Made by a program: the position numbers and the translations under genes. 64,000 nt of DNA. It comes from Agelas oroides. Its lineage: Eukaryota > Porifera > Demospongiae > Agelasida > Agelasidae. Every line of letters begins with the position of its first letter. The stretch's first letter is position 1. The stretch covers positions 15,536,405 through 15,600,404 of the forward strand of contig OX422184.1 in NCBI GenBank assembly GCA_949130485.1, written 5' to 3'. The notes beneath the pieces are model-generated. The model did no database searches, had not been told where the DNA came from, and saw only the letters and a list, made by a program, of their open reading frames with translations. Shown here piece after piece: positions 2,011 through 61,405 of this stretch.

Positions 2011-2112
2011 CACTAACACAACAACTGCATGGGACACACTTGTCATAGTTTGTGTATATGAACATACTCTGATGCTTGTCATGCAATGGAAATATTGGTA
2101 TAATATGTGACT

Positions 2113-11137: not shown

Positions 11138-11393
11138 GCTTCATGCCCGATGACGTCATACGACCTGTGATATCGACAATGCAGGCCAGGAGAGCACAAT
11201 CTGAAACACATTTAAAGGAAAGAAAAAAAGAGGAAAGGATTCCATTCCCTGGCCCTAGCCCTAACCGTAACCCTAATACTGCACCGCCTAATGTGTACCG
11301 CGCTAATGCACCTACTAATATAATCACTCCCTATGCTACAGCTATCGTATAGGGCAGACGACAGACGTCATATGACGTCATCGGGCATGAAGC
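11138..11393. mobile_element. inverted-repeat element with telomere-like core (256 bp)
   Basis: Terminal inverted repeats GCTTCATGCCCGATGACGTC and its complement end the element. The core has an A/G-rich tract followed by CCCTGGCCCTAGCCCTAACC and further CCCTAA-like units. No unambiguous TSD. One of three elements with this core. Confidence 0.75.
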
Positions 11394-11432: not shown

Positions 11433-11863
11433 TATGGCACGCCATACGTAACAAAATTATGAAGTCGACTTCAACTTACCAAGTCGCTATATTGCGACTC
11501 CCAAGTCGTTATATTGCGACTTGCCAAGTACATCATCTTTACGTCATGGTATTTTAACACAGGAAAAGAAGGCAAGAACCACAGAAGAAAAAAAAAGAAG
11601 AAGGGAAGAACCACATTCCCTGGCCCTAGCCCTAACCCTAACCCTAACTGTAATACTAGGCCCTAATCATCCAGCTACAAGCCACTGCTGACGACTGCGG
11701 TGCACTAAACTGTCTTTACGCACCAACATTACTACATGACTTTAACGCACCAACATTAATGCATTACAACATTACATGACGTAAAGATGACTTGAAAGTC
11801 GCAATATAACGACTTGGTAAGTTGAAGTCGACTTCATAATTTTGTTATGTGTGGCGTGCCATA
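11433..11863. mobile_element. long-TIR element with telomere-like core (431 bp)
   Basis: Terminal inverted repeats of about 90 bp begin TATGGCACGCC. A 6-bp direct repeat AGAACG flanks the element (11427-11432 and 11864-11869). Removing the element and one AGAACG gives a 30-bp sequence that is present uninterrupted, in reverse, near 56745-56775, so the limits are confirmed inside this window. The core holds an A/G-rich tract then CCCTAGCCCTAACCCTAACC. Confidence 0.88.
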
Positions 11864-12845: not shown

Positions 12846-14072
12846 ATGCAATATGCATGGCTACTGCACTTTACCACATTCATTTACTGTTATACAATGC
12901 ATACACAAGCAGGGGAAGCAGGACAGTTTCAGATAGTGCTGAACTGCACCAATTTCACCTTGCCACAACTGAAAACAATCAACCTCACTGAAAGTGCTTG
13001 TGGACTGGTCTGTCTGTTGATCTCGGTCATAATTCTTGGAGCTCTCCTGTACTACAAAGCCTATAAGACCACCCTGCAACGGTTGTTCCTGTGTCTGATG
13101 GTTACAACAATTCTACAGGAGGCAGGTTTGGCCACTACAGTTGAGCACCAATTTCAATACAGGGGGCAGGAAACTGTCTGTAAAGTGATTGGATTTTCAA
13201 ATCAGTATACTGGTACAATGATCTACTTGTTTACTGCACAGATTGCCATTTTCCTTCTCTATATGGTTTACAAGCAGTTAAATGGTGACCCATTTCCAGG
13301 GCTCTCACAATCGAAATGTAGCAGTACTGTACTGGAGTTTCTGTATGCTTTTTCAGGCATTGTTATATCCTTTGGTGAATCATGGTACCCATACTTTGAC
13401 GGCAAAGGTGACTATGGTCTAAGTTTGGCTGATTGCTGGATCAAAGCTTTTGATGAATATTGTAATCCCGTTGGCTACAAATACCAGGTCATATCATACT
13501 GTATTGATGAAGGACTAGGCATGATCAGTGTTATAGCAACTGTTGTACTGGTGGTTGTGTACTGTAAACGGTTTTATGTGTTTCGAGAGGTTGAATACCC
13601 CCAGATACGGTTGCTCCTGCGACAAACTTTACTCTTGATGGGATTTCTGATGTCATCCTTTGTCTACTTGTCAGTTGGAATAGTGAGGTTCTACGTCCAC
13701 AGTTATCCACTATTACTTGCCAATTCAACTGGCATCACAGTGTCTCCTCTTATCATTCCAGTTGGATATCTTGTGTATCTTTATGCTACTAGAAATCCAC
13801 ATGTCATGCAGAATGGATGTTGTAGATGCAGTGCAGGTTGTTGTCGGGCATCATCTCAAGGTCATGAACGCAATCCTGCATTGCCTGCTACTGAAGAATG
13901 TGGAACTCATCGAACATCACACACAGAAAACATTCCGAGCAACAGTTTCTTTACTGTTGAGTATACTGGTGCTTTCACTCACATTACAGAAGACGAGGGT
14001 AATTCACATGTAGGAGAGCATGAACCCCTTGTTGCCAAGGAAACCCAATATGGAAGTATTACTACAAAGTAG
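12846..14072 (+). CDS. orphan seven-transmembrane receptor (putative GPCR)
   Basis: Intronless ORF of 408 residues. An in-frame upstream extension to 12816 starts with TTG, so I use the ATG at 12846 (context AACAATGC). Residues 1-20 are hydrophobic and could be a signal peptide. The short extracellular N-terminus has sequons at N33, N36 and N46. Hydrophobic segments sit at about 51-73, 78-97, 118-142, 160-178, 218-242, 257-281 and 290-315. C112 before helix 3 and C197 (ADCWI) before helix 5 are positioned for the usual extracellular disulfide. A CCRCSAGCC cluster at 325-333 just after helix 7 looks like a palmitoylation site. The tail is hydrophilic and ends YGSITTK. The CWI motif and overall plan suggest the cAMP-receptor-like or secretin/adhesion-like side of the superfamily. 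Ligand and G protein are unknown. Confidence 0.85.
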   Translation: MQYAWLLHFTTFIYCYTMHTQAGEAGQFQIVLNCTNFTLPQLKTINLTESACGLVCLLISVIILGALLYYKAYKTTLQRLFLCLMVTTILQEAGLATTVEHQFQYRGQETVCKVIGFSNQYTGTMIYLFTAQIAIFLLYMVYKQLNGDPFPGLSQSKCSSTVLEFLYAFSGIVISFGESWYPYFDGKGDYGLSLADCWIKAFDEYCNPVGYKYQVISYCIDEGLGMISVIATVVLVVVYCKRFYVFREVEYPQIRLLLRQTLLLMGFLMSSFVYLSVGIVRFYVHSYPLLLANSTGITVSPLIIPVGYLVYLYATRNPHVMQNGCCRCSAGCCRASSQGHERNPALPATEECGTHRTSHTENIPSNSFFTVEYTGAFTHITEDEGNSHVGEHEPLVAKETQYGSITTK

Positions 14073-14870
14073 TCATATCCTAGAGTTGGAGTGTATTAAT
14101 GCATTGCATTTTTACTTCAGATTGTATTACTATCATTTTACTCATGTTTTCAAAAAGGAAGTCATCATGTTTATGGTTTTGTGTATTCTATTGACAATTT
14201 GACATCATACTACTTTCAGTTCTGATACTTTGCATGAATGTCTTTATGACTGGTAGTGTTCATGTGAGCTCAGATAACTATCATGGCGTACGGTAGTACG
14301 CCATATGTAGGGATGACCCCGAAAAAAAATGGCGGCCACATTCAAAGTGCACAAATGACACGCTCGAAATGTCCGCGTTAGATAAGTCAACGGCCTCCAT
14401 GAGCCATATCAGACATTATCGAGTGCTTCCATGGGCAACAGGATCGTTAAATTTGCTGGAAAGCATCGCTAAGTATACCTGACATCAAGTCGCTAAAAAA
14501 GGCAAATCGTCTATCTTCTGACTTCTTTTTCTCACCACGATAGCACGACAACGGCTGGAGCTTTTACAACGATTCAAACGCAAAACAACAGGACAAATCA
14601 CTAGGTATTGTACCTGCCACTTATCGGTCTAAAAGAAAGAACTCAAACTTGTCGGCCATTCTCAGGTAATCTCACACTTACGCTAGCTGCTACACGCCAT
14701 TTTGCTCGAATTAAATATTACTCATAATTACGTCACCAGGGTTCAACTGAGCACGTGGTTCAGTACTTCGTAGTACAGAGGTGAGAATTGAGTGTTGGAG
14801 TTTGCAAATCTGATTTCGTGGATCAGTTGACGTGGTTGTGCTGCACTTTACATCGAACGCAATATGCATA
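14073..14870. other. intergenic; 3' flank of receptor and 5' flank of the repeat-protein gene
   Basis: No gene supported. A small hairpin ATGGCGTAC...GTACGCCAT lies at 14284-14305. Several CGC/CGA-rich stretches precede the next gene, but no TATA is seen. Confidence 0.35.
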
Positions 14871-15440
14871 ATGTCCGCAAGAAACGAGCGCAGGACAAGC
14901 AGAACTACCTGCGAAACAAAGGGGAAAAAAAGGCAAGCGTCCTCCTATGCCTGTTATTGGAAGGACCCTGAGACGAAAAGGGCGTCCTCCCATGCCTGTT
15001 ATTGGAAGGACCCTGAGACGAAAAGGGCGTCCTCCCATGCCTGTTATTGGAAGGACCCTGAGACGAAAAGGGCGTCCTCCCATGCCTGTTATTGGAAGGA
15101 CCCTGAGACGAAAAGGGCGTCCTCCCATGCCTGTTATTGGAAGGACCCTGAGACGAAAAGGGCGTCCTCCCATGCCTGTTATTGGAAGGACCCTGAGACG
15201 AAAAGGGCGTCCTCCCATACCCGTTATTGGGAGGACCCTGAGAAAGGAAGGGCAGCTTCCCGCATATCCTCCCATACCCGCTATTGGGAGGACCCTGAGA
15301 AAGGAAGGGCAGCTTCCCGCATATCCTCCCATAGTAGTTATTGGAGGAGCCCTGACAAAAAAAGGGCAGCAGCTCGTATGACTAATTTGAAGGCTGCAAA
15401 AGCCAAGCTCAAGTGGTATAGACGGTACTATGCCAGCTAG
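14871..15440 (+). CDS. protein of tandem 15-residue YW(K/E)DPE repeats
   Basis: The ORF (189 residues from the ATG at 14871, MSARNERRTSR) is short and strongly basic at the N-terminus. Six 45-bp units at 14940-15209 encode SSHACYWKDPETKRA; the first has Y for H and the others are identical by eye. Two 57-bp units (15210-15323) encode SSHTRYWEDPEKGRAASRI. A degenerate ninth unit follows, then a lysine/arginine-rich C-terminus. I recall similar Y-x-x-D/N-P-E/D-x-K-R-A repeats at the N-terminus of Helitron-associated and other mobile-element proteins of marine invertebrates. No catalytic domain follows here, so this may be a detached or truncated copy. Antisense and +1 frames across the repeats are also open, a by-product of the 45-bp period. 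Confidence 0.5.
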   Translation: MSARNERRTSRTTCETKGKKRQASSYACYWKDPETKRASSHACYWKDPETKRASSHACYWKDPETKRASSHACYWKDPETKRASSHACYWKDPETKRASSHACYWKDPETKRASSHTRYWEDPEKGRAASRISSHTRYWEDPEKGRAASRISSHSSYWRSPDKKRAAARMTNLKAAKAKLKWYRRYYAS

Positions 15441-16218
15441 TGTTTTAACCATCAAGTACTTCATATGACTTAGAACACTAGCCACTGATATTCAATTTCA
15501 AGTTTTATTGTCAACTTTCACATTTCAAATTTGCTTGTTATAGTCATTTACATGCATATAGTACACATACAATGTTTACTGCGAGTTGATGGTAGCACTT
15601 TGGCTGGTGTCTTCTTAACATCCTCCTTTTGTGTTGTCCCTGAGTCTTCATATTCCTCCAACGAAGCAAGTGGCAGCCTATTGGTAGCTTGGTATACTCA
15701 AACTCTAGTAGCACCGAGTCAACAGTGCATGGCTTCATTCCAAACTTCTGCACTAGAGGTGGCCACAGAACTGGCGGTTGTTCAGCTCCACAGACCCCTA
15801 TGCGTTCGTTTCAAACCCATTTAGACTATAGCCACTCACCATGCATCAAACAGTTCTGTAATGGGGTCTTACGACTCAATACTCTGGTGACAGTCTATGG
15901 AGGGTTTTTCGGTGAACCCATTAGTAGTCCACGTGAAATGAGCACAGGATTTATAAGCTTGCATGCAAAGCCTTATTAAACTCATCTGCTTTTCACTTGG
16001 TTTTTATGAGACTTTGCTTGGACTGTACTTCTAAACCCCCCGAAGTTTGATGTTTGGATTGACGATTTCACTTCAAAGCGTTTGAATTTATGACAATTCT
16101 TAGCTCTTTCTACTATCATACTGTACACACCATGCATCTTCCCCTCGGCCTACCCTCCCATGTCACTTCTCTCTTACCATTCCTAAAAAGCAATACAAAA
16201 AAAAAAAAAAGAGCAGGA
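15441..16218. other. intergenic, fragments only
   Basis: Open frames at 15531-15979 have no recognisable motif. A segment near 16055-16115 matches, in reverse, the core of the element at 29246-29440, so it is a transposon fragment. A poly-A run lies at 16197-16210. Confidence 0.35.
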
Positions 16219-16354
16219 ACAAGTCACAAAAAAGTTTTCTGAATGAAAACAAGTGCATGTAGGGATGGAACCCTCAAAAACCAACCAAACTAGATGGGAA
16301 TGACACCACAACAATTTCACACCATCCCTACATCTTGTGCCATTTTGCCAACTA
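16219..16354. repeat. left copy of perfect 136-bp inverted repeat
   Basis: By direct comparison this segment is identical, base for base, to the reverse complement of 29608-29743. It begins ACAAGTCACAAAAAAG and ends TTTTGCCAACTA. A diverged third copy of the outer 68 bp is at 46073-46140 and also stops at GTGACTT. Immediately inside comes CACTACAAAAAT and an AT-rich tract to about 16740, as on the right side. Confidence 0.95.
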
Positions 16355-16978
16355 CACTACAAAAATTGTCTCTTAAAAATAATTATTGTGTGTTATATTG
16401 GCTGAATTTAAGTGCTACATTTTTACTAGAGTAAATATGTTTTAACTTCATATAGTTAAAGTAATTTATTTATTCATTACAATCAGTAATGGTAATATTA
16501 TCATCTTCGGAAGATAATTTTAAACAATACAGATTAATTAATTTAACCTTAAATACTTAAAACATGTAGCAAGGTAAATTCAACTAAATTTAATAGAAAC
16601 AGCTAGTTATTAATGTTGATTATAACCAAAGTAATTTCGCTGGAACAAATGAATATTTAACGGCTAATTTATTACCAAAATTAATACAGAATGACTATAG
16701 TTAAAAATTACAAGAAATGTATTTCTCTCCTTTGCAGTTGATGTCAGTGGTGGTTGTCATGCAGATCTGGAAATATTCACATCAATATACTAGCATGCAT
16801 GTGCATATATATATCGATGCATTCAGCATTGTTTTTTGTCAGTGCCATTTAGGAGAGTTTGTATGCCTCTGCATAGTCTCGTTGTCATATATATAGTCAC
16901 AGAGACAGGTATAGTGCATCAATGTGCACTTTAATACAAGACATGCAAACATTTCACTTAATCTTGCACATTATTATA
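16355..16978. other. AT-rich subterminal tract, 3' flank of the transposase-like gene
   Basis: Very AT-rich with many TTAA/ATTAAT words from 16380 to 16720, then ordinary DNA up to the stop codon of the minus-strand gene. Mirrors 28500-29055, which also begins, on the inverted strand, CACTACAAAAAT. Confidence 0.6.
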
Positions 16979-19900
16979 TTAGTACACATATGGCAAAGAT
17001 ATAAAAACAGATTTATCAGATGATACAAAATTCTTTCTTGCTCTAAGAGGGCGGTGATCACTGAGCATATCAACACATACTGCAAAAACACCACCATGAG
17101 GGATGATTTCAAATGAATTGTAGTGACTGTTAAAAATGTGTCCATAGTATTTCTGCATGCACAATACAACTGTATGTTCGACACACACTATATCATGTAT
17201 TTTGCCAAAAGTTGGCTTTATAAGATTGTGTTCTAGTAAAACATACACTCCTTTGCATAAGTGTGAGTTCTGCACATCAGTCCAACTAGGATGATGTACA
17301 AGTGAACCCATGGGTAAGTTAGGAATGAGACGTAAAAGTTCACGTTGAACATATTCGTCCTCCTCACTCAAGCTACATGTCAGGACTTTTTTACTCATCT
17401 CAAATTTTGGCATAAGTAGATGTGGATTGGACTGAATCTGATGACACAGCCAGAACTGATGCTTTTTGGCGACAGTTTTGCACACATTCTTATAGTTACT
17501 ACGTCTAGATACTCTTTTGACAAAACTTAGTTTTGATTCCTGTCTCATGTTCCAGGACTGGATCAGTGGGCCAAGTCTCTGAATTTGAGAGGGATAATGT
17601 ACCATGTAATGTTGCTTTGGAATCATAGTTTCTTCAGGGTACAGTCGTTGAAAATCATAAAGCTTTTCCTCAATCAGTACACGCAGATATGCAATAGTAT
17701 CATAGGTGCATACAGGCGAGAGTGATATGCTGCAAATTTTTAGAAGAACAAGAAATGAATGCCAGTGTTCATCTTCATGTGGAATTGTGTCAGCGACTAA
17801 AACCGGGAACTCTTGACTAAGCACCATCATCTGAGACGCTGACTGCCTAATCTTGACGTTGGGATTGTTAGCCACTCTGGGATCAATCAAATTAGGTCTG
17901 TTGTTACCAAAGTCATATGCCTCAATTCTCTGGTTAAGTTGCCCAATCGTGAAGTACTTTGCTTGAACACAGTGACGGATGAGGAGCTTTAGCTCGTAAG
18001 GGACTACACCCTCAAACAAATCATGCATTATGTCATGAGGGAGGCCATTCACAACTGAAAAGCCAGGGATTTCCTCCAGTAATGACAGCCTGTTAATTCC
18101 AAATGTTGTAGAATAATGATCATGGAGAGGACCTGTCAACAATGTACATTGTTGTAGGTAAGTTTCTGGAGTCCTTAAAGTGCAGCTACTCTCCACAAAA
18201 ACATTTTGCATCTGTTGTGTGGTGGTCATGCACGATCGGCACACCCGTAATGCAAATGACATACTCTCCTTGAAGCCACCAAGACAATGAGCGGCTAGGG
18301 TGTCAGCTAGAAATGCTAGTACTGCTCCATAAAATGTGTGCTCCTCTCCATTGACTGACACAGTTATCCCATCACAATAAAGGACTTTGAGGTCTTCAAC
18401 AAAGGGTGATAAAAACGTGTCAATGCCATACGTATTTATATCTTCGCTTCGTGCTACAGCAACAAGGTGGATTGCCTTAAAAGTAGATCGATACTGAGGC
18501 CTAACGTTACCAAGGAAGAAGAACAGGCATCCTAGCTTGTGCCTTTTCACATATGACCCAATTGGGTTCACAACTTCCAATTCATCATAATAGGGGATGA
18601 TCTGTAAGGCATACGGATCCGAACTGAATATTGGATGTGTTTGAAACAAAGAGCCATCACAGAAGTCGCCCAATACATCATTTGAACTGTGCATGTGGGG
18701 GTTCAATATCTCAGCCTGAAAGTCCTCTAGTTCTAGGAGGCCTCTTAGGCTATCCAGCAGAGATACATAGTAGAATTTATCGGAGGAAATGACCTTTCTG
18801 CGCTTGGGACCACTGAAACGATTCACATAATATGCCTCTCCAAAATCAATTTCTGTTGGTTCCTATATGAGTATAGATATACGATACAACAGGTGTTAGC
18901 ATGCATAAGCTGAACAGCTCCAACTACCGTAGTCTCGGGAAAGAGCGCCCACCCCCTACTTTTCGCCCAACTTCCTGTATAGGGTTAAAGTTTACTCGAA
19001 TGAGCGTCCACCCTGGAGCGAGCTTTGTGTGACTAATGATAGCCTTGTACCCAGGCTCCTCCCCATGCAGAAAAACGGGGAGAGAGCCTTGAAGATTTGA
19101 TCACGTGCCCCGTGACGTACTGTGCATGGTTTTGTGCGTGGTTTTGATAATCGAATTATTGCTCACGCACTCTGACTCGAAATATTGCCCAGCATTGTGA
19201 AATGCTAGTATAGACCATCGTTGTTGTTGTTGGAGTTGTGGATGTTGCTGGGACTTACGGATCGGCTGTTTTACAGTTCACGAGCTAGCTTGTAGGCTAC
19301 AATAAGTGCAGCTTCTACCGAGGCTTTTACATAGCTGCAGGTCGTTCGGTTCAACAGGCGCTCGAGACTTGTTGATGGTCACAGCACTGGTTGCTGCTCA
19401 CTGTGACAGCAAGGGGTCCTTCGAAGGCCACTATGAACAACTGTAAGTTCTAAAAACAAGTTCAATAAAACTATAAGCTGTGTAGCTTCTACAAAGCTCG
19501 TTCCCCAGCCAGCTTGTTGCATGTTAGTTATATGACCAAGCCTGGGAACTACTTTTCAGAACTCACAGTTACTCATAGCGGAATTTGAAGGACTCGTTGT
19601 TGTCATAGTGAGTGGCAACCAGTGATGTGAGCATCAACAAGGCGACTTGACTTCGAAGCCGCTGGCAGCTCCGTTGTACGCTCTTTCGTGGCAGACTTGT
19701 AAAGTGCTCCGCCCATGGGCACTCTTTGTGAGACTACGGTACTAGCTAATGCACCAAAAAGAACATTCAAATGCTAGATGCAGACTCTTGACACCATAAA
19801 GCAGGGTTATTCCAACAGTATTGAAATGCTGGGTTAATTCAGACACTGGAGGACAGACAAGTGTAATGAGGTGCAAAACTGAGAACTGCTGTGCATGTAG

Positions 19901-20739
19901 CAGGCCATTTTGACTGCATACATATAACTCCACAATGTTGTGAAAACATTAGGTTGGTTGCCAGATTTATATCCAACCATTGGAATATCCCCTACAAGCC
20001 CAACAAAACAACACAGACAACAGGGTGTACATGTATGTGTGTGTGTGTGTATTTATCTGTGGACATGACTCACCAGGCATCCAAGATTCTCAATGCAGAA
20101 CTTCTCAAAGCGATAGTTCGTGTCAACGCACACAAACGGATCTGGATCATAGTTTAGTACATCTGTTAAACCTGGAATGGTTTCAGGGTTAATTCCGGCA
20201 TTTGTCAGTGTTCTTTCAATATCCCGCTTCAATTTATCAACTGAATGCTTGCAGAAAGTCTTGCATCCAGTTTTAACATCGGCAATAGCAACTTGAGATA
20301 CTTGGCGCTCTTCCCTAAGTTTAAGCAGAAATTTAGCAGATGTAACTGCCTGCAAGTACTGACTCGACTCTGTCTCAGGCCTTTCGACCACAGGGGAGTT
20401 ACAACCAATGCCAGCATGTTCATTGTCTCTTTCACCTGCATGGGTGTGTTGCTCTGTTTCAGATAAAAACTCTTCTATCACCAAGGGAGACACTGGCCTT
20501 TGCTCAGTGGCTGTGGCAACAGAATCAGTTTCAAATGCATTTCGATGATGGCGATAAACGTGACTGTTGAAGGCCGAAAATGCTTTGAACACCTCTCTGC
20601 AAGCATCCACTCCACACATAATGTTGAAGGATGGGTCTTTTGCATGTACTAATCGAAGGTGGCTCACATAAAGCCTGAAGTTAAGAGATGGAGATCCACA
20701 CAAAGGACAAATCCATAACCTTGGTACCCCAGGTTTCAT
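16979..20739 (-). CDS. C2H2 zinc-finger / DDE-transposase-like protein, two exons
   Basis: Exon 1 is 20739-20074 (222 codons, ATG at 20739) and ends at TGCCTG|GTGAGT. Exon 2 starts after TCATATAG at 18862 and runs in phase to the stop at 16979, giving 849 residues with no disruption. Two C2H2 fingers lie at residues 11-32 (C11, C14, H27, H32) and 42-65 (C42, C47, H60, H64/65). A serine/glutamate-rich linker follows. From about 223 comes a large conserved region with DFCDGSLFQTHPIFSSDP, PYYDELEVVNPIGS, KHKLGCLFFFLGN-type and LPHDIMHDLFEGV motifs. The D-x-MH-D-x-x-EG motif recalls CMC/CACTA-Plavaka-like transposases and a large unnamed family expanded in fish and invertebrates. The catalytic triad cannot be assigned by eye. 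The gene is divergent from the SAM gene; its leader carries a 12-residue uORF (20784-20746) ending 6 nt before the ATG. Its intron (18863-20073) hosts a TA-flanked element. Confidence 0.8.
18927..19739. mobile_element. TA-flanked inverted-repeat element in the transposase-like gene's intron (813 bp)
   Basis: The ends are CCGTAGTCTC and its complement, each followed outward by TA (18925-18926 and 19740-19741), as in Tc1/mariner-type elements. Internal arms around 19370-19460 and 19550-19660 are also inverted copies of each other. No ORF with transposase motifs. Confidence 0.7.
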
Positions 20740-21168
20740 TTTGGATCAGTCTTTGCGAAATTGACCGTCTTCCCCATTTGTCATTCTGACCGCGTCAAAT
20801 ACGACACCAGCTGATAGACGTCTGCGCCGATACTTTATAAAGGGGATACAGGAAGTAGAGTTTGAATGGAGTACGCTAACTCCATGAACTCGCAAGTCTT
20901 GACTTCTCGCGTTGTAAAATGAGCATGAGCGGAACGTCATCTCGTGATCGACACGTGATCCTGAAAACGTGTTAGAACACGCACGACGGTCTCAGAGGTG
21001 CCGCAATCCTTAGCAGCTTGCAACTTGGCGTACTCCTCTCAAACTCTACTGTACCCCCCTTGTGAAGTATCGGCGCAGACGTCTATCACAGCTAGTGTCG
21101 TATTTGACGCGGTCAGAATGGCAAGTGGGGAAGATAGTGTCATCTTGAATTTCGCAAAGAAGGATCCC
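20740..21168. promoter_or_regulatory. bidirectional promoter formed by an inverted duplication of a first exon
   Basis: About 140 bp at 20740-20881 (read on minus) matches 21028-21168 (plus), separated by about 147 bp. Both copies contain AAGTATCGGCGCAGACGTC and TGTCGTATTTGACGCGGTCA followed by ATG. The plus copy opens the SAM gene (ATG 21118). The minus copy has a stopped version of the same exon, which is now the uORF of the transposase-like gene. The minus copy carries a good TATA (TTTATAAA, 20834-20841). The corresponding plus site is CTTGTGAAG, without TATA. Confidence 0.85.
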
Positions 21169-24100
21169 GTAGATGTAGCGCTCTATCTGAAGAGCGAAGG
21201 CGTATCTGAAGACATTTGCAGTGAATTTGAAGGTGTGGTGCTACTTTTTGTATGCAATAATACGGAAAATAGACTGCACACGTGATAGATTGTTCGTGCA
21301 AATTATATCGAGAGAGCACTGACATTGAAAGATGGATTTGTGAGCGAATTTGGTTATACTTTTTTGTGTATAGGAAATTGTCTGTAAATGTATAAATTTT
21401 CATCTGTCCTGCAGATAATGAGATTGACGGTGAAGCTTTCTTGGACTTGTCTGAGAGTGATATTAAGTCCATGGTGTCAAAGCTAGGAGTTGTGAAGAAA
21501 CTTCTGCGACTTCAGAAGGTATGCTAGCATACTTCCGGCATGGCCTCATTCCTGGGCCTCCCCTGGTTTATTACTCTTCGTTTACGTTGACAATATCAAG
21601 CCAAACAAACTAGTTTCTTGTAGCCATTGCATAGATATTACATCATGGTTTGTTAGTCTCATGCCCAGACCCAGCCCTCTCACAAGGAAAGTGTCTAGTA
21701 GTCTATTCCCCAGCCCGCATGCGCCTCCCAGTGAGAAGCAGTCTAGTGAACGAAGTCAATTTCCTTGGGCTTATTCCCAAAAAGTGGTAGAAACCAATGA
21801 GATTGCGGAATCGGTAATTATTATGTAGCACTTCCCTTACAACAGTAATGTTAATCTCTGTTTAAGTATCCGTACTATTTTTTAGGTTTGGCATAAAAAA
21901 GTTTTGAAAGTTGATAGGTGACACTGTCACAGAAGTGTGCGCAAGCCCAAGAAATTAGACTTGGTTCACCATACCGTTTCTCCTCTGAGGAGGTTAGAAG
22001 CTAGTAGTTAGTGACACGAGCGGGGTATCAATTAGTGCTACGTGAATGATGTAATCATACGGACTGCCGTATAGCCCCATAGTGAAAGGTAAAATCGAAA
22101 CAGCTTTCATTTGTTTGGGACAAAATTTACTCAGTTGATACTGCCAGGTGAGCACTAGATTGACCATTATGATGCCCAAGAAACACTCAAATGCTTCGCA
22201 TGTAAGAGCAATAGTGGTCGATCTAGAGCTCACCTAGCAGTATCAACTGAGTGAGTTTCATCCCAAACAAACAAAAGCTGTTTGTGTAACTCGATTTCAC
22301 CTTTCACTATAAGCTTCCATGGCAGTCTGTATGTTATGTCATTCACATACACGTAGCACTAATTGCTACCTCCCCTAGCCTGGTTCCCAGGCCCCACCCA
22401 GCTTTCTGTCGCTTGCAGTATGGAAAAGCGGGAAAGGGCCTGGTATCTTTTCTCATGTGAGTGACGTCAGGATAGAAAGGATGGTAGAAAGGGTTTAATT
22501 GTGCGTGGGCGCACTAGGCCCAGAACCGCAAAAAGAGCCAAGGTACCAGGTAACTTACCACTTGTATCTAGCTAGCGGGAGGCGACTGTCGAACACACCA
22601 AGCATTGAGTGTATAGTCAGTTGAACAATACGCGAAATGCAGCTGTTCTGTAAATGTTTGGCCATTTTCCGATTATATCTTGCTCACGTGAGAAAAGATA
22701 CCAGGCTCTCCCTGCTTTTCCATACTGCAAGCGACGGAAAGCTGGGCAGGGCCTGGGAACGAGGCTATACCTCCCCCGTATCACTAATTACTCGCTTCCA
22801 ACCTCCTCTGGTTTCTCCTCTGAGAGGGTGGCATCTGGGGACCAGAGGAGGTCGGACACAGTTGAACTTTACTAATTAAAAAGGCCGGGTCATCACTAAT
22901 TGATGTTGGATATTGCAAGGTAGAAAGTTTTTTTAGCTTTTTCTATGACTGTACCCAGCTATAACTGGGGTCCCTCTCCATAAAAGTCCTGAGAGCTAGT
23001 CTGTTGAGATACGAAAGATCAGTTAGTGATGACCTGGCCTTTTTAATTAGTAAAGTTCAACTGTGTCTGACCTCCTCTGTCTGGGGACAAGACTGGCAAG
23101 CCTAAATCCTGGGAAGTGTCCCAGCTGTGTAATTGTTAGTGTAGGATTACAAATTGGTCAGTGTTGAATAATGAATCTCATAACATCACTTGAGCAGTGT
23201 TCACACTTCTGCTTATTCCAATAAATGCCACTCTGCTATTTGCTCTACACTTCTGGAGCTAGCCCAAGGAGTTGGACTTGTGACACCAGACCCCTTCACC
23301 TCCCATGAGCTGGGTGGGATCTTCCGCAAGTGAACTCTTTGGGGATTTACTTGTACAACTCCTCTCATGTATTTTGCTTATACACTGAACTAACCAAGCT
23401 TTATACTATCTGGTTTATGAAATGCCTGCTGCAATAGGTCATTCTTTCTTTATCTTGTACTTCACAGAAAGTGTATGAAGCACCTGCAAGTAAAGCACCA
23501 GCAAGTCCCGTTTTTGCCCAGAGCACAGCTAGCTCTCTGCGCAGTTCCAGTGAGCGGGAAATTGTCTCCCCATTTTCGCCACACTCACCTATGTTCTCCC
23601 CTCCAAGTTTCAGTGACTATGATGACGCATCATCTGTGGCGTCATCATCGTCAACAGTAAGTAAGCAAAAGTTCTCTATCCCCGACTCTTGGCCCCCATC
23701 TATCATGGCCTGCATACAACAGCCTACTGAGGAGGAAAGAAGGCGGGCTCTGACCCCACTTATTCGAAATGAAATTGTTCGAGTGGTTACAACACAAATG
23801 TTTTGTTATGACCCCAAACCGCGGAAGGACTTCTGCACTTTGGTAGCCAAGAAGCTAGTAGCGAAGTATCCCTTTATGAAGGACACAGGGGAGAGAGTCT
23901 CTGGCTATGTAAGTTAGTTACAATTGTGTGTATGTGTGTATCTTGTGATGAAATGTCTAATGTCTCATATAATGTACCTAAAGCATCAAAACTGTTGGCA
24001 TGAGGTTGCAACTTCTTCATAACTTTATAGGGATCATGGGAGAAAAAGATTATCGAGAAAGTGCACAACCTAAAAGCTCGGACAAAGAGACCTTCTGATG

Positions 24101-27100
24101 GGGAAGGTACCCCAAAAGCAAAGCGTGGAAGGCCCAAGGTGTCGCTGGTGCTAACACGTTATCCTCCCATGAGAGATTTTGGAGATGACGATATAGCTGT
24201 GGAAAGAAATGTCCAGCAACTGAAGAAGGAACTTGATAAGGATAAGCCACGTAAAGAAATAGTTTTATCGTTGACTCGCCAAACATACTCTGCCCGTCGC
24301 ACTACAATCTTGTCGGAGAGTGATGTCAGTGTCCATTGCCTTCTCCAACAATTTAACGAGCTAAAAAAGCCATATGTGGTGAGTGCAGCTACATGTTTGT
24401 ACGAATGCTGAGTTTGGCAACACCAATATTTTTTAGTACTAATCTCAACTGGCTTGTTAGTCAGCCTTGAAACCGGGTGGGGAATGGGTCTATATCCAGA
24501 TATTTGTAGGTGTGCATGGAAACATGTACTCTTGAAGCAACTTACTGTTACAATAAGCATAGTTAATGGGTTATAACCCTAGTACTTTTCATTACCTCTA
24601 GCTTCAACAGGAAATTGACCAAGTCCTGGAAAGAAAAGGCGTTTTAAAAACAGCCATGCAGGACTGGGCAACCAAATGGGTTCCAGCTATTCTGGAGTAT
24701 TCCAGATCATCCGCTGGAAAACTTGCTGCAGTTGTCCTGCAGGCTGAGAAGGATTATGAAGGTAATTTAATGAGCTGATATAGGCAATGAAATGTGTTAG
24801 CCAAAGATTGTCCAACCTCATAATTTGGTGAAACAGCCAAGATTTATACTGCGATGAATGTGCTTGTGGATCTTATTGCCTGCAGGTGATGACTTGAAGG
24901 ACGAAAAGGTGGCTTTGATTGTATTGTGCAAGGCTCTTTCGAGGAAAGGGAATGATAATGCCATCCTATACATCTACCAGGAGTGCAAGGTGAAGTATCT
25001 TTCACAGTATTTGAGATGTTGCCTTATAACCTCGATCCCAGGCCTCCCCCATTTTGTCCAGTATGACACACGAAAAATGGGGAAGGCCTGGGAACACTTA
25101 TCACTTGATGTTATACATGAGTGGACATGGGGTGGACGTAGGGGCGGCAGTGCCTAACTACAAATTCATGTGCAATAAACCGTAGAGCGAGTTTCTTACT
25201 GTTTAAGGTTACGGGTACAAGTTCATGAATAAAATTAGTATGTCAAAAACTTGCCTGTACAACTTTTCCTACAAAAAAGCTACTGGATATTTACAACAAC
25301 CAGTCACTACAGAGGGCATTCGGCTATAGTTCAGCATAACACTAACTTTGCTACAGTACACTGTCAAGTGACAGTAGGCGGGTGCTCAGTGGAGTACGAG
25401 TACAAACTTCTACGTCAGTTCGCTCGCGTTGTTGCACACAGAATGCCGGATACCAGCGTTTTATCTATTGTAGACATCGTTGCAGGGCCACACGAAGCGT
25501 TTTTGAAAGAAAAATTTTCCAGTTCGCAGTAGTTTGTTTTCAAAGTTTGTGGGTACCCGTTTTTCGAGCATCCAGCAGCCTTTCAGCCACTGCCTCTCTG
25601 TTCTGTTACGAGATATGAGCAAAAACACTTCGTGTGGCCCTGCAGTGAGTTGCTCTGGCTCTGTTTAAGTCATAAATAGCACCTAGTTCCTCCTACCATC
25701 GTAGTAAACTGACGTAGAAGTTTGTACTCGTACTACACCGAGCAGCCGCCTACTGTCACTTGACTGTGTACTGTAGCAAAGTTAGTGCTATGCTAAACTA
25801 TAGCCGAATGCCCTCTGTAGCGACTGGCTGTTGTAAAAATCCGGTAGCTTTTTGGTAGGAAATGTTATACAGGCAAGTTTGTGACATACTAATTTTATTC
25901 ATGAGCATGTACCCGTAACCTTAAGTCAAGTACTCTCGATCTCGCAAACATCTGGGGTCCTACCTATCGATGGAGTGTTCACGGATGAAGACTAGTACGT
26001 TATTTGAATGTGGACCCCTCCCCTCTATGTCCACCTGACATCATTCATGTGATAAGTGTTCCCAGGCCTTCCCCGTCTATCACCGCTCTTCCGCTTCTGT
26101 GTATTATACTAAGCACAAACCGAAGATCAGTCTCGTCTACCGTGGTGAAATTGCAATTATCGAAATACGGAAACACAATTACCATTCTTGTGGCATGGTA
26201 GTTTTTCTCCATCACTGGTCTTTCAGGATGTGTTTATAGATGTGGAAACCTTTCAAGCCCTTACTGTACATTGAAGCAACAAACCTTCTTACAAACTTCA
26301 TCGGTATTTTGTCATGTGCACAGACATATCACAGCCACAAAATCGCAAAATAAAATTTGCATAATGATATTGAAAGGCCATTTTGCATGGTGTTGCATAC
26401 ATTTCCGAACCTACAGTGTGCTGTGCTTCCTCTCCACTTAAAATGTTACTGTAAATGGTTTGATTATGCTCACTGATATTAATATTCATGTGCATGCATG
26501 TGGCAACCTAGTGTCTAATTTCATTGAACTCTGGCATGGAAGATTGATAAAATAGGGCCAACTCACAGACCTTACAGTGGAGTCTACATAATTTCCTTGT
26601 CTAGGTTTACCATGAAAAGTATGTACCGTAAGCTCCCGAAAATACTCCCCCCATTTTTGCACATACTTTGAGGCAAAAGTGGGGAGGGGGCGTTTGCTCG
26701 AATATTCATTTAGTCTCATGCATATGCCCCCCACCCCACCCAGTTCCTCGCAATGTTACGAGCAAGGTCAACATTACGAGGACTGCTGCGGCTTTCTCGA
26801 AGAACAGCAGCTTCGCTGAACTTGTACTGCGGGTAATCAGTGGCAGTTGTGTTGATACTAAGCCGAGAGGCAACTTGCATCGTCAGTAGTGACAGGGGAC
26901 GACCCCGCGTTAGTTTGTACTGCGAGCATTTAAAACCTAAGTGGTGGCCAGCAAACGAGACTGTAGTGATTTCGTGTGTACACACTCGACGACGGAGCTA
27001 AACCAAAAGCTCACTAAAAGCATGCCCAGATCTAGAGGATGCTCGCTAGGGGGCGTTTACACGAGGAAAATACCTGTGCAGGGAGGAGGGCGTTTGCTCG

Positions 27101-28127
27101 AAGGGAGTGTATTTTCGGGAGCTTACGGTACTATAAAACTACTGATGTTAGTGGCTACTTAGCATTTTTGGTTCATTGACATATTGGTGGAGTTTATACA
27201 CTATTTTTGTGCACACTCAATATAGACAGGTAAGCTTTCTTAGTATTTCTTACTGTCCTCTCACTAACATTACAGTACAGGTCACAGGTAAGGTAACACA
27301 CAAGCGTGTGACCCGCGAGTTAGTAGTCGCGCACACGCGAGTGCTTGCTCCACCCGCGTGAGTCTCTACCCCCGCACTCGGCCCGCGTGAGTTAACATTT
27401 GCCGACGGCAGTCAGCACGTTAACTCGCTAGACTGGCTAGCAAAGACAAATGTAGAAATTACTTCAATTCGGTAATCGGAATGAATAAAATCGCGATATA
27501 ACCATCACACCGGTTAACCGATTATACGCGAGATTAAATGGAATGCAATTAACCTCAAACGCGGAAATAGGGCCGTGATAACGCTTAGCCGTATCCGTGA
27601 CGCCAATTGGCGTCTATCGCATTTCGTGACTTATGTGCGTATGACGCCAGTTGGCGTCTACCGCGTATAATCAGTTAATTGCCCATTCCTAGACTACGGT
27701 ATTAGATCAAAGGCCTAGATGGAAAGAGCATGCATGGTTGTATTTGTTACTGTTGTTATTGTTGTTGTTGCCATTGTACTTGTTATTCTATTCTCCTCAG
27801 ATGACAGATGACCCCATTGAGGTGGCGCTAAGTGATCCAAAGCGGTCTGCTCCAAGGGTAGCCTGTTTCCCTGGAGAACAGTGCCAATACTTCCTATATG
27901 TTGAAAGCGAGGTTTTATGTGAAGTTACCTCTTTTGCACATGCTTTAATGCTGTGGTTTGTATCACACTATGTGTTCAATCTTGAGTACTGTACCAAAGC
28001 TAAGGAAGTTGCTCTCTTTTTCCAAGAGTTTATCTTCAAGCTGCCTGCCACCAGTGGCATGAAGAGGCACAAGACAGCTACATATCTGACAGTGACAACT
28101 GACATTCAGAACTGCTTGGTAGATTAA
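21118..28127 (+). CDS. SAM-domain protein, SAMD3-like, seven exons
   Basis: Exons: 21118-21232, 21415-21518, 23468-23908, 24031-24378, 24602-24761, 24886-24989 and 27801-28127. All introns are GT-AG, all phases agree, and the total is 532 residues. Residues 1-73 form a SAM domain (DPVDVALYLKSEGVSEDIC... then DNEIDGEAFLDLSESDI). A Ser/Pro-rich linker follows. A conserved region begins near residue 140 (IPDSWPPSIMACIQQPTEEE, then FCYDPKPRKDFCTLVAKKL). An AT-hook-like KRGRPK lies around 251-256. The last exon (residues 425-532) carries the signature SAPRVACFPGEQCQYFLYVE and ALMLWFVSHYVFNLEYC. This arrangement matches my recollection of SAMD3-like proteins, which are multicopy in fish and invertebrates with no clear biochemical role. 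The AT hook suggests DNA contact (inference). Introns 2 and 6 are loaded with foldback elements that leave splice sites intact. Confidence 0.85.
22022..22370. mobile_element. foldback element in SAM intron 2
   Basis: Arms of about 140 bp at 22022-22165 and 22225-22370 are inverted copies (tips GGTATCAATTAGTGCTACG and its near-complement). The right arm abuts the TSD of the next element. Confidence 0.65.
22376..22767. mobile_element. TAGCCTCG-family element with 80-bp TIRs and 9-bp TSD
   Basis: Inverted repeats of about 80 bp begin TAGCCTGGTTCCCAGGCC. A perfect 9-bp TSD TACCTCCCC flanks it (22367-22375 and 22768-22776). Long TIRs and a 9-bp TSD suggest a Mutator-like (MULE) non-autonomous element. 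Each TIR contains TCGCTTGCAGTATGG, also found at the centre of the tiny hairpin 5458-5530. Confidence 0.85.
22847..23085. repeat. inverted repeat pair in SAM intron 2
   Basis: A block of about 60 bp around GTTGAACTTTACTAATTAAA at 22847-22905 recurs inverted at 23010-23080. Limits and TSD not resolved because neighbouring repeats overlap. Confidence 0.6.
25207..25920. mobile_element. TTAA-flanked foldback element in SAM intron 6 (714 bp)
   Basis: The ends GGTTACGGGTAC and GTACCCGTAACC are perfect inverted repeats, each followed outward by TTAA (25203-25206 and 25921-25924). This target site is typical of piggyBac/Kolobok-type insertion. Arms of more than 200 bp are inverted copies. Just inside them GGGCCACACGAAG-like sequences form a second inverted pair. 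A short plus ORF (25251-25532) lies within an arm and shows no motif. Confidence 0.85.
26626..27128. mobile_element. TA-flanked inverted-repeat element in SAM intron 6 (503 bp)
   Basis: Terminal repeats CCGTAAGCTCCCGAAAATAC and its complement are flanked by TA on both sides (26624-26625, 27129-27130). The CCGTA tip is shared with the element at 18927-19739, suggesting one TA-targeting family. No transposase. Confidence 0.8.
27599..27658. repeat. two 16-bp palindromes, 44 bp apart
   Basis: GACGCCAATTGGCGTC (27599-27614) is a perfect palindrome. GACGCCAGTTGGCGTC (27643-27658) is the same with one change. They lie in an unusually CpG-rich part of SAM intron 6 (27290-27680). Confidence 0.75.
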
Positions 28128-29245
28128 ACATCAGTCAGCCGTTGTTGTGTTTTGAGACAAATATGCATAATCACATCTTTTTTTTCACTGGCATAATTAT
28201 GTATTATAACATTTGGTGGATTAAAATCACCAGTGTTATTTTGTGTTTTGGGAGAGCCATGCAAACCTTTTTCCATTAATTGCATGTTCACCTAGATCAA
28301 TTACTGCAGAGCAATTTGCCACTGTACATCATGCAGTCACAGGGATAACAAATGCACCTTAATAGTATAGTATAGTGTTTGCTTGCTTGCCAGGTTTTTT
28401 GGAGGAAAATTTGCTCTTTTCACTGGAATAACCTGGGTGTTTTAGTCTTGCCTTTCAATGGTTGAGCTGCATGCATGTTGTAACCAGACCCATTTTCAAA
28501 CTGTCAGGGACCTTTTACAGACAATATAAGTTCTTTTATTTATTACAAATATTTTCCCTTTCAATGACATAAATAATGGTGTTTCAACTGAATTTAATGT
28601 TTATTAGGAAATATAATATAGTAAAAGTACATTATGTTTGTATTATTTTCAACAATAACAAAAGTAATATGCTTTTACCATGCTGAGTGTTCTTATTATA
28701 AATATATAAATTTAGTTTAAACATTCTCAATAATTTTATCTTACTATAATATTTAGTTGAAACATTGTATATATTAATATTATTTTAAACTATAAAATAG
28801 TTTCCTTTCACTGTAATACCTTGTTTAAACTTTTGTCATTGATGTTATTTTTAGCTATATATAACATGTACTTTTACTATACTACATTTAGTTATTATAA
28901 ATGTAAAAAATTTTGGTTGAAACACCTTCATTTATTAATGTTCTTTTTTCTACAATTTAAAGTGGTATTACTAACCATTATTATGGTCGCCTCAGTTTCA
29001 ATTGATTCAACCTTAAAATATATATTATTCTAACCTCTTCATTTTTGTAGTGTATGCACACCAGTAAACTCTCTAGCCTATTCACACCCACTAAATGAAT
29101 ACTAGCTGTAGTTAGCGCTGCTCATTCCACAGCCTTTTACATAAAGACAATCCATATCTGCCATGTTCAGCAGCAATAAAATTTCACAACATAACTTACT
29201 CCAACAGACCCAGCTCATGCACTCGACAGTTTCTGCATTCAAGAC
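28128..29245. other. 3' flank of SAM gene and AT-rich subterminal tract
   Basis: 28500-29040 is strongly AT-rich with recurring words such as TTTAGTTGAAACATT in both orientations. On the inverted strand the tract begins CACTACAAAAAT, as on the left side at 16355. No ORF beyond chance AT-rich frames. Confidence 0.6.
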
Positions 29246-29440
29246 TAGTCTCACAAGCCAGACCCTTTCCGTTCCACAGTGCAGATCGCTTTCAGTATCG
29301 GCACGCAGAGGAAGGCACTAAGAATCGTCATAAATGCTTTGAAGTGAAATTGTAAATCCAAACATCAAACTTCTTCCCTCTGTGTGCCGCATACTGAAAG
29401 CGATCGGTGCTGCGCAGAAAGGGTCTGGCTTGCAAGACTA
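29246..29440. mobile_element. TAGTCT-family element with 9-bp TSD (195 bp)
   Basis: Inverted ends TAGTCTCACAAGCCAGACCC and its near-complement. Perfect 9-bp TSD ATTCAAGAC at 29237-29245 and 29441-29449. The core matches a fragment near 16055-16115. Same superfamily as the TAGCCTCG elements by tip and TSD length (inference). Confidence 0.88.
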
Positions 29441-29607
29441 ATTCAAGACAGACCATATACCTGCCATTCTCAGCATAGCAACTACATCACAGCCACCCAC
29501 AACATAACTCACCCCCCATGCACATCAACATGCACTCCATACCCAGCACTACCCATCCCACTGCCTTCCACAACCCTCCTATGAACACAACTAACAAACA
29601 CAAAGCA

Positions 29608-29743
29608 TAGTTGGCAAAATGGCACAAGATGTAGGGATGGTGTGAAATTGTTGTGGTGTCATTCCCATCTAGTTTGGTTGGTTTTTGAGGGTTCCATCCC
29701 TACATGCACTTGTTTTCATTCAGAAAACTTTTTTGTGACTTGT
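29608..29743. repeat. right copy of perfect 136-bp inverted repeat
   Basis: Identical in reverse complement to 16219-16354. The outer limit GTGACTT(GT) is the same point at which the fragment at 46073-46140 stops, which argues that it is the true end of a mobile sequence. Flanking bases on the two sides do not form an obvious TSD. Confidence 0.95.
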
Positions 29744-31562
29744 AGTATCTATGACTGATTCCATTAGTGGGTGTAGCAAAGGCTACCATTACACTAATCA
29801 CTACAAAGTAACACCACTGTGATGTAATAAAGAAGACTAAACTTGAACTTTAGTTTCCATTTTGCGAAGTAGTGACAAAAGCAAACTGCAAAATTGTCCA
29901 AGTAGTTCATGAAAGGTCTTGAAAGCATACTTGATAAATGCACTCAGTTGGTTTGCCATTCTTAGCTTGCATCCGATAATGATCGAAATGATATTGTACA
30001 TTCTTGAGTTATACTACTTCTGCCAAATTTAGTGATTGGGATGGGATTATCATCGACTCCAGCATCATGTAATCAGTTGATTTACAGCCCTGTATAGTAG
30101 TTAATGTGAGGTGAAACAGATTGCTTTAACTATTTCCCAATTTTACTGCTTACAAACAGTCCTAGTTTCAGGCTTAGGTGGTTTTTCACTACTAGACTCA
30201 CTGTAGTTGCACACTGCTCCCCTAGATTGCTGGACCACAGTGCATGATGAGGAGGCAGGGAGAGAGAAGCAACCTTTGACCTCCAATGATGTGTATCCTT
30301 AGTAGTGCATGGCTATAAATAGTATAGTGTTTGTTATGGTACTCATGCAATATGATGTAAGTTGCCTCTTAAGAAAATCATTTGGCAACTTAATTAAGTT
30401 ACAGTTATGGCACAGTGCCAGGGATTTATGGCAGTAAACAGACTGAGTCCAAGGGCGTAGCCTGAAGACAAGGTTTGTTTACTACACCCACCTGTGGCCA
30501 GGCTTCTGACACTTCTGTAACTCTAAATGTCTAGAAATGACTCTAGTAATAATACTGTACAAAATATGTACTAATACCAAAGTAATGTTTCTAAATTGAA
30601 AAAAGGATTTCTGACTGCATGTCTTATATGGATGTCATTGTATGTACATACACTGATTCAGCATAACTGATGAGACAGGATTACCACTAAGTAGACAGTG
30701 TGGCAGCTAATCGTCCATGACTGAGGTCAACCAAGATCACAGTGCTGTGTGTAGGCAGGATACTTGTAGTTTAAGAAGTACTTGTTGACATATACCAGTG
30801 TTGCATGCATCATTTGTATTATCCCCATCCAAATTCAGTGCAAAATAAATGGGTATGGATGGAAACAGATTATGGGCAGCCATAACCATAGGGCAGATCC
30901 TTCAACATATGCACAAAAGACTTTTGCAAGTTCAGTGGTGAATTATATGCCTAGGGAGTGAAGAATAGGCATGCATACCACTTCAGCGTAGTTATCCAGC
31001 TAAGATTGGATTCTCAGATGAATGGTGCTCCATCCATTTTTTACCCCCTGACAAACACTGGAATTAATACATACATCTCGTTAAAAGGTGTAGGTTATGG
31101 TGGAAAAGTGAAACACAGCCAAAATTAATGTTTGTTTTAAACTGAGAGGCTGCAGGATTTCTGAACATCTTTCTAACACTTGTACTTCCCTTGATATATG
31201 TAGTTCAGCATAGGGAGCTTCATTCAGAGTAGATAAAGTCATGTGGTAGATTCCACACTTGTCTGACCCTCTACTTAGCTGGTTTTGTTTCGAGGCATTT
31301 CATCAGTCCTTTCGCTTGACTGCTGGCAGTATGACTCCACCACCGTGTTTAAGGATGCAGACAAGTGACAGTTAACTGAGTTAATCAAAGTGAGTCAAAA
31401 TCTTTCATCTTTTTTGACCGTATAATTTATTACAAGATTTTGTGCACGATTATATAGCTATGTGAGTTTTGGTCAGCAACCAGTACTCTAGCTACTACAG
31501 TGTGTATACCTATGTCATGCAATGTGAATGCCTACTTTCATCATGGTGACAGTTCAACTTCT
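29744..31562. other. intergenic, nothing gene-like seen
   Basis: Unique-looking DNA without long ORFs, repeats or RNA-gene signals. TTTATT at 31426-31431 is a plausible reversed AATAAA for the minus-strand small gene. Confidence 0.4.
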
Positions 31563-46072: not shown

Positions 46073-46140
46073 TGGTTGGTTTTTGAGGGTTTCATCCCAA
46101 CATGCGCTTGTTTTCATTCAGAAAACCTTTTTTGTGACTT
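46073..46140. repeat. fragment of the 136-bp inverted-repeat sequence
   Basis: About 68 bp matches the outer half of 29608-29743 with a few differences and stops at the same terminal GTGACTT. Confidence 0.85.
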
Positions 46141-47720: not shown

Positions 47721-47963
47721 TTTGCTGTACAAGTTGGACAATGGGATAGGGGCTCACTCCTTTTATAGTTGCAACTGCACCCCGTGTATCACCGAATGGC
47801 CTGCTAGACAAATTACAATGTCATATTATAGTGGTATTTGGAAACAGTGCTTTGCTGCTAGAACTGTTTACTACAGTGAAGACATATTTTTGTCGTGCAA
47901 TATTTATAAAATTATACTCATAAATTTTTTAATGTGTCCATTTATGGTGTGCAGGTGTCAACA

Positions 47964-61094: not shown

Positions 61095-61405
61095 ACCCGG
61101 TTTGAAACCGTTTACGTCATCTTATGAAATATCCATAAGAGGCTACCGAAGCGAAGATGTTCATCACATTTTGTAAGACCACAGAAAAAAAAGAAGAAGA
61201 TATAGTGTATTCCCTGGCCCTAAACCTAACCCTAACCCTAACCCTTAACCATTTAGCCAACGAGCCGCTTCAGACGGCCACCATGCTGTATGGTCTAATG
61301 TATTTAACCTACGGCAGCGCGACGGATTATAATTATTTAATAAGGTGCGCGACGGATTATAAATAGTTATTACAGTGACGTAACCGGAAACTGTTTCAAA
61401 CAGGA
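61095..61405. mobile_element. inverted-repeat element with telomere-like core
   Basis: Imperfect TIRs around CCGGTTTGAAACCGTTTACG and its relative at 61377-61405. The core has an A/G-rich tract (GAAAAAAAAGAAGAAG) followed by CCCTGGCCCTAAACCTAACC and further CCCTAACCC units. Third element with this core. Confidence 0.65.

Follow-up and report, generated by a model that had tools for sequence, protein, structure and literature searches.

Positions 16355-29052 of a 64-kb stretch of the genome of the sponge Agelas oroides (contig OX422184.1; the whole stretch is called the window below) are in all likelihood a cut-and-paste transposon of the CACTA/EnSpm type (CMC class), which lies inside an unrelated high-copy repeat and carries two open frames, one for a transposase and one for a SAM-domain protein that would be its partner. 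The parts of this account that are directly supported are the ends, the 2-bp target-site duplication, the empty site, a second copy, the gene models (predicted from DNA alone), the homology and the catalytic signature. A sequence-only reading of the same DNA had proposed an undescribed two-gene mobile unit; a mobile unit with two genes it is, while its transposase is one of the CACTA/EnSpm (CMC) superfamily, which is already known.

Ends of the element and the repeat around it

The 12-mer CACTACAAAAAT and its reverse complement (ATTTTTGTAGTG) occur only twice in the 64 kb, exactly at the two ends of the element. Uninterrupted copies of the surrounding repeat such as L006 read CAACTA-TGCACACC, where the window reads CAACTA, the element and then TATGCACACC, which indicates that TA was duplicated on insertion; the sequence-only reading had seen no obvious target-site duplication, and one becomes visible once the CACTA ends are taken as the true ends. 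A second copy (C7:2681329-2701921) aligns with the whole element in four segments of 94.7-98.0% identity. The alignment covers 16354-29052, the A at 16354 being a chance match just outside the end, and the flanks examined do not match. This copy is flanked by CA on both sides, three insertions interrupt it (one each in transposase exon 2, SAM exon 2 and a SAM intron), and its transposase frame contains a stop. Genome searches with the left 406 bp of the element gave two matches and those with the right 553 bp four, two of these being confined to the last 100 bp.

As a genome-wide marker of the family, CACTACAAAAAW was rejected, since its 163 matches are fewer than the 291 of a reversed control, and the 12-mer motif is therefore meaningful only at these element ends. 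Two right-end relics of the element (CACTGC; C2:6887770-6887859 and C2:6912507-6912596) lie 24.7 kb apart with the same flank, so that the host locus may have been duplicated in tandem.

The 136-nt arms on which the sequence-only reading was built are complementary at 100% and 13,253 nt apart, and the GT-AG gene models confirm two divergent genes between them. The arms do not, in contrast to what was proposed, bound the mobile unit. A genome search with the 136 bp (40 scored of 1,704 first-look candidates) shows that the repeat is no product of chance: each of the 40 scored matches is identical over the full length, 38 of them being copies other than the two arms in the window. Inverted pairs among these matches have starts 687 bp apart in four cases and 658 bp in one. 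When 29041-29743 was searched (40 scored of 1,573 candidates), the 39 matches other than the window began only at 29053 (one at 29055), the base directly beyond the CACTA terminus, so that all these copies of the right part lack the element end. Together with the C7 copy, which has no 136-bp repeat, these results largely match the outcome named beforehand as speaking against a boundary at this repeat.

The best-scoring copies of this host repeat were aligned as 27 fetched stretches with flanks (L001-L008, L010-L028), which represent 24 distinct loci, three having been fetched twice, and the insertion point is crossed without interruption in all of them. To the left, 26 reach well past the 136-bp arm and L003 ends at 16204; to the right, they end at 29741-29748; identity is 97.6-99.8% in 26 stretches and 88.6% in L003. 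A search with 13700-14890 placed the left boundary at about 14279/14280, its 39 other full matches comprising 12 at 98-100% identity and 27 at 91-92%, and the two boundaries together give a host repeat of about 2.8 kb, for which 1,213-1,704 first-look candidates were obtained depending on the probe. It holds a tandem array of 45-bp units that seems to vary and codes a 15-aa repeat, and its right end carries a large inverted repeat; an outer inverted repeat of the 2.8-kb unit was not seen. The window shows a 136-bp inverted repeat because the split halves of one host-repeat copy flank the inserted transposon, and the 540 bp noted on the right before the AT-rich DNA are the remainder of that copy.

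A further end fragment of the same host repeat lies at 46073-46140. It matches at 93% over 46073-46132 and ends in GTGACTT at 46140, equivalent to 29741, which is the commonest end of the host-repeat copies (16 of 27 stretches), and the earlier claim of a shared terminal base is hence upheld.

The transposase gene and its divergent neighbour

The transposase model comprises 849 amino acids (aa) in two exons joined by a GT-AG intron (Table 1). In its numbering the catalytic signature reads D315, D409, C430xxC433, H640xxxH644 and E664, a D-D-E arrangement with C(2)C and H(3-4)H between the second D and the E as defined in the accessible text of PMC12730594, and all seven positions are present in 27/27 aligned proteins; the choice of D315, D409 and E664 as the three catalytic acids is a prediction from a modelled fold. 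Transposase_21 matches at E <= 0.01 in 26 of the 27 proteins (best 8.5e-8), and the database entry of the window's transposase (P0004) carries PF02992 as a precomputed domain. When viral and prokaryote contigs were scanned using the transposase alignment, none of 29 and none of 70 pattern matches, respectively, was confirmed.

The second gene, modelled with seven exons and GT-AG introns, encodes 532 aa in which SAM_1 is the sole Pfam match. KRGRPK or KRGRPR, an AT-hook-like motif, occurs in 4/4 inspected homologues that cover the region (P0001-P0003, P0130). The predicted fold of the relative P0002 reached a predicted local distance difference test score (pLDDT) of 54 and was not interpreted. 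An imperfect palindrome occupies the divergent intergenic stretch and extends into the opening codons of the SAM gene (20740-21134), so that a decayed copy of the 5' end of this gene seems to lie on the transposase side.

Table 1. Features of the element and of the host repeat in the window.
Feature	Position	Strand	Remarks
CACTA/EnSpm-type transposon	16355..29052		12,698 bp; same two ends in C7 copy
Left terminal inverted repeat CACTACAAAAAT	16355..16366	+	
Right terminal inverted repeat	29041..29052	-	reads ATTTTTGTAGTG on +
Target-site duplication TA	16353..16354 (left copy), 29053-29054 (right copy)		from comparison with uninterrupted copies
Left subterminal AT-rich region	16355..16978		72% AT
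Transposase exon 2, RNase H-like catalytic core and C-terminal BAH-like domain	16979..18862	-	
Transposase exon 1, N-terminal zinc-finger-like part	20074..20739	-	zf-C2H2_4 weak, E 0.046
Divergent intergenic region	20740..21117		378 bp; palindromic arms 20768-20851 and 21049-21134
SAM exon 1 (SAM domain)	21118..21232	+	SAM_1 E 2.4e-5, 25 bits, cut-off 23
SAM exon 2 (SAM domain)	21415..21518	+	
SAM exon 3	23468..23908	+	
SAM exon 4 (AT-hook-like KRGRPK)	24031..24378	+	
SAM exon 5	24602..24761	+	
SAM exon 6	24886..24989	+	
SAM exon 7 (conserved C-terminal domain)	27801..28127	+	
Right subterminal AT-rich region	28128..29052		72% AT
Host repeat, left part	14280..16354	+	includes 45-bp tandem array and left arm 16219-16354; copies mostly end 14279/14280
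Host repeat, right part	29055..29743	+	includes right arm 29608-29743; copies diverge from window at 29741-29748

Recurrence of the gene pair and competing explanations

That the SAM protein is a partner of the transposase, as the sequence-only reading had suspected, is very likely, since both genes occur in the two full copies and since their divergent order recurs elsewhere in the genome. Searches of the sponge's own genome scored 70 of 222 candidates for the transposase, giving 90 matches that cluster into 46 loci, and 81 of 132 for the SAM protein, giving 53 matches in 23 loci. Nine of the SAM loci have a transposase locus within 30 kb, all nine head-to-head, the window and the C7 copy among them, compared with an average of 0.69 and a maximum of 5 such pairs in 10,000 random placements (assuming 10 Mb for contigs other than C2, C3, C4 and C7). 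Six of the seven transposase loci with more than 95% exon coverage are paired, the unpaired one being the broken locus C2:6858838-6860694. The arrangement persists as transposase identity falls from 59% to about 40%. Apart from the window and C7 there are seven paired loci, at which 15 of 18 SAM matches contain no internal stop. In two families on C2, A and B, with 58% and 54% transposase identity to the window, CACTACAA sites 0.8 and 1.1 kb beyond the transposase are taken as their putative left ends, and the candidate start codons are 477 and 487 bp apart, compared with 378 bp in the window.

A wider SAM search returned 85 proteins (the query's first row included). When the contig sizes of these and two extra proteins, size being that of the longest contig of a cluster, were compared with the 71 distinct transposase sizes among the 120 matches listed, 11 of the 49 distinct SAM contig sizes above 5 kb were base-identical to a transposase contig size, one of them an 8,529-bp contig, while control comparisons at seven offsets from 1 to 1000 bases gave one coincidence in total.

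The loci are unevenly distributed: contig C2, with 10% of the genome, holds 19/46 transposase and 12/23 SAM loci (binomial P 3e-8 and 5e-7), and 16 of its 19 transposase loci lie between 6 and 16 Mb, perhaps in a low-recombination region.

Several observations weigh against a CACTA/EnSpm-type element with a SAM partner. In the window's transposase, Transposase_21 (E 1.4e-5, 24.9 bits) and DUF4218 (19.7 bits) stay under their Pfam cut-offs of 28.6 and 27. Comparison of the two copies gives a ratio of nonsynonymous to synonymous substitutions (dN/dS) that does not lie clearly under 1 (SAM 0.0064/0.0084; transposase 0.006/0.0108), and subterminal repeats are weak: the repeated 10-mers number 33, where 200 shuffles gave at most 29, and 12-mers stay within the shuffle range. 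Unpaired are 37 of the 46 transposase and 14 of the 23 SAM loci, three of the nine pairs (C22, C6, C2:10.03 Mb) depend on weak SAM matches, and the termini of families A and B were read on the left side only. The size coincidences indicate shared contigs but do not establish adjacency, as all but one of the 11 contigs measure 0.5-4.7 Mb. The correlation between transposase and SAM pair distances is weak for all 12 pairs (r 0.24, P 0.12) and becomes strong only once two doubtful rows are left out: r 0.49 (P 0.015) for 11 pairs, with P0093/P0002 left out because its 2,361-bp contig is too short for both frames and the sources differ, and r 0.82 (P 0.0001) for 10, with P0113/P0138 (distant transposase, 1.6-Mb contig) left out as well; P0074/P0130 stood outside all runs, since P0130 covers another exon. 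Finally, the target duplication of 2 bp (TA in the window, CA on C7) differs from the 3 bp that the accessible text of PMC12730594 gives for EnSpm, although 2 bp is the length given for animal TRC members in that of PMC1636069.

Among the competing explanations, a new two-gene transposon with the perfect 136-bp inverted repeat as its ends would accommodate the perfection of the repeat and the bracketing of both genes, yet it has next to no probability. The C7 copy of the unit has no 136 bp at its ends, similarity between the copies stops at CACTA, and the 27 host-repeat stretches (24 loci) continue across the insertion point, by which the 136-bp repeat was ruled out as a transposon end. It is also very improbable that the two genes have been domesticated by the host and sit at fixed loci, the CACTA ends being a mere relic; only two full copies of the family were found by their ends and the introns are long, but these copies lie on different contigs and have the same ends with different target duplications, one of them within a high-copy repeat whose best copies reach 99.8% identity, a combination that indicates past movement.

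Somewhat more credit, though still a minor share, is due to a true CACTA transposase accompanied by a captured host gene, with the SAM protein as a passenger irrelevant to transposition. SAM domains are common in host proteins, the predicted partner role is drawn from sequence, and a SAM gene was not detected at the unpaired transposase loci. Against this stand the head-to-head order at diverged loci and the stop-free SAM matches, and the base-identical contig sizes suggest the same pairing in other assemblies; such a recurrent pair argues against a passenger, because a passenger would vary or be lost. A CACTA/EnSpm-type transposon with transposase and SAM partner is the preferred explanation.

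Elsewhere in the window, short telomere-like CCCTAACCCTAA stretches, each preceded by CCCTGGCCCTA, lie within repeats (11219-11276, 11590-11647, 61184-61241), 47910-50141 is an open frame with a protein kinase domain and kelch repeats, and 2072-5006 is a satellite-like tandem array with spacings of mostly 172-182 bp.

Relation to known systems and implications

The element is a member of the CACTA superfamily, and not of a new one, with an architecture that was not found described in the literature searched. It has inverted CACTA termini (window and C7), a 2-bp duplication, a Transposase_21-type transposase and the D-D-E signature. PIF/Harbinger elements likewise combine a transposase with a separate DNA-binding accessory gene, but their transposase is unrelated, the partner is Myb-like and the target is 3 bp. 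RAG1 has the RAG2 propeller as its partner, and the element differs from Transib and RAG1-RAG2 in its CACTA ends and SAM partner; a PDB sequence search with the transposase gave no chain at E <= 10. Plant CACTA elements make 3-bp target duplications. With maize En/Spm (TNPD/TNPA) the element shares the CACTA terminus, the Transposase_21-type transposase and the large size, whereas TNPA is a splice product of one unit and the partner here is a separate divergent gene with a SAM domain and an AT-hook-like motif, in which Pfam finds only SAM_1 and which may still be distantly related to TNPA. TNPA is the second protein needed for movement of plant CACTA elements, as summarised in the accessible text of PMC1636069.

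Animal TRC elements, to judge from the accessible parts of the reports on SmTRC1 of Schistosoma (PMC1636069) and on Hydra Spongebob (PMC4298943), are similar in belonging to the CACTA superfamily and in their 2-bp duplications, and SmTRC1 in addition in Transposase_21 and its location in repeats. Both differ in having CCC ends, and SmTRC1 is a 4.5-kb element with one alternatively spliced unit and several proteins (PMC1636069), in contrast to 12.7 kb and two divergent genes here. The fungal ESTA elements are, in the accessible text of PMC12730594, EnSpm-like with a RAG1-like transposase, an extra gene and a TA duplication like that of the insertion in the window; their extra gene encodes a TET/JBP dioxygenase and the duplications are TA throughout, and membership in ESTA was rejected on the CA of the C7 copy. 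In titles and abstracts of the papers listed by literature searches for a second gene or SAM partner (subscription journals and Repbase lying outside these searches), no treatment of a SAM-domain partner of CACTA elements was found.

In the proposed mechanism, the element would move by cut-and-paste with a transposase of predicted RAG1 fold, which would cut at the CACTA ends through a RAG1/Transib-like active site. The SAM protein would use its SAM domain to oligomerise and its putative AT hook to bind the AT-rich subterminal DNA, and by analogy with TNPA of maize Spm it would help to assemble the element ends, while the common divergent promoter would balance the two proteins. More tentatively, the animal CACTA elements of this lineage might be obligate two-component systems, in which a transposase of RAG1 fold, whose BAH-like tail would read chromatin, is joined by a divergent promoter to an ancient partner that polymerises on AT-rich ends by means of SAM domain and AT hook; vertebrate SAMD3-like proteins, whose resemblance to the SAM partner we assume, would then be domesticated partners.

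Taken together, the window offers a CACTA element of animal type whose CACTA ends are exact, whose empty site was seen directly and whose two genes are both open. The RAG1-like predicted fold would bear on the kinship of CACTA, Transib and RAG1, and the SAM/AT-hook gene, as a recurrent companion of the transposase, is a candidate that can be tested as the counterpart of TNPA in animals.

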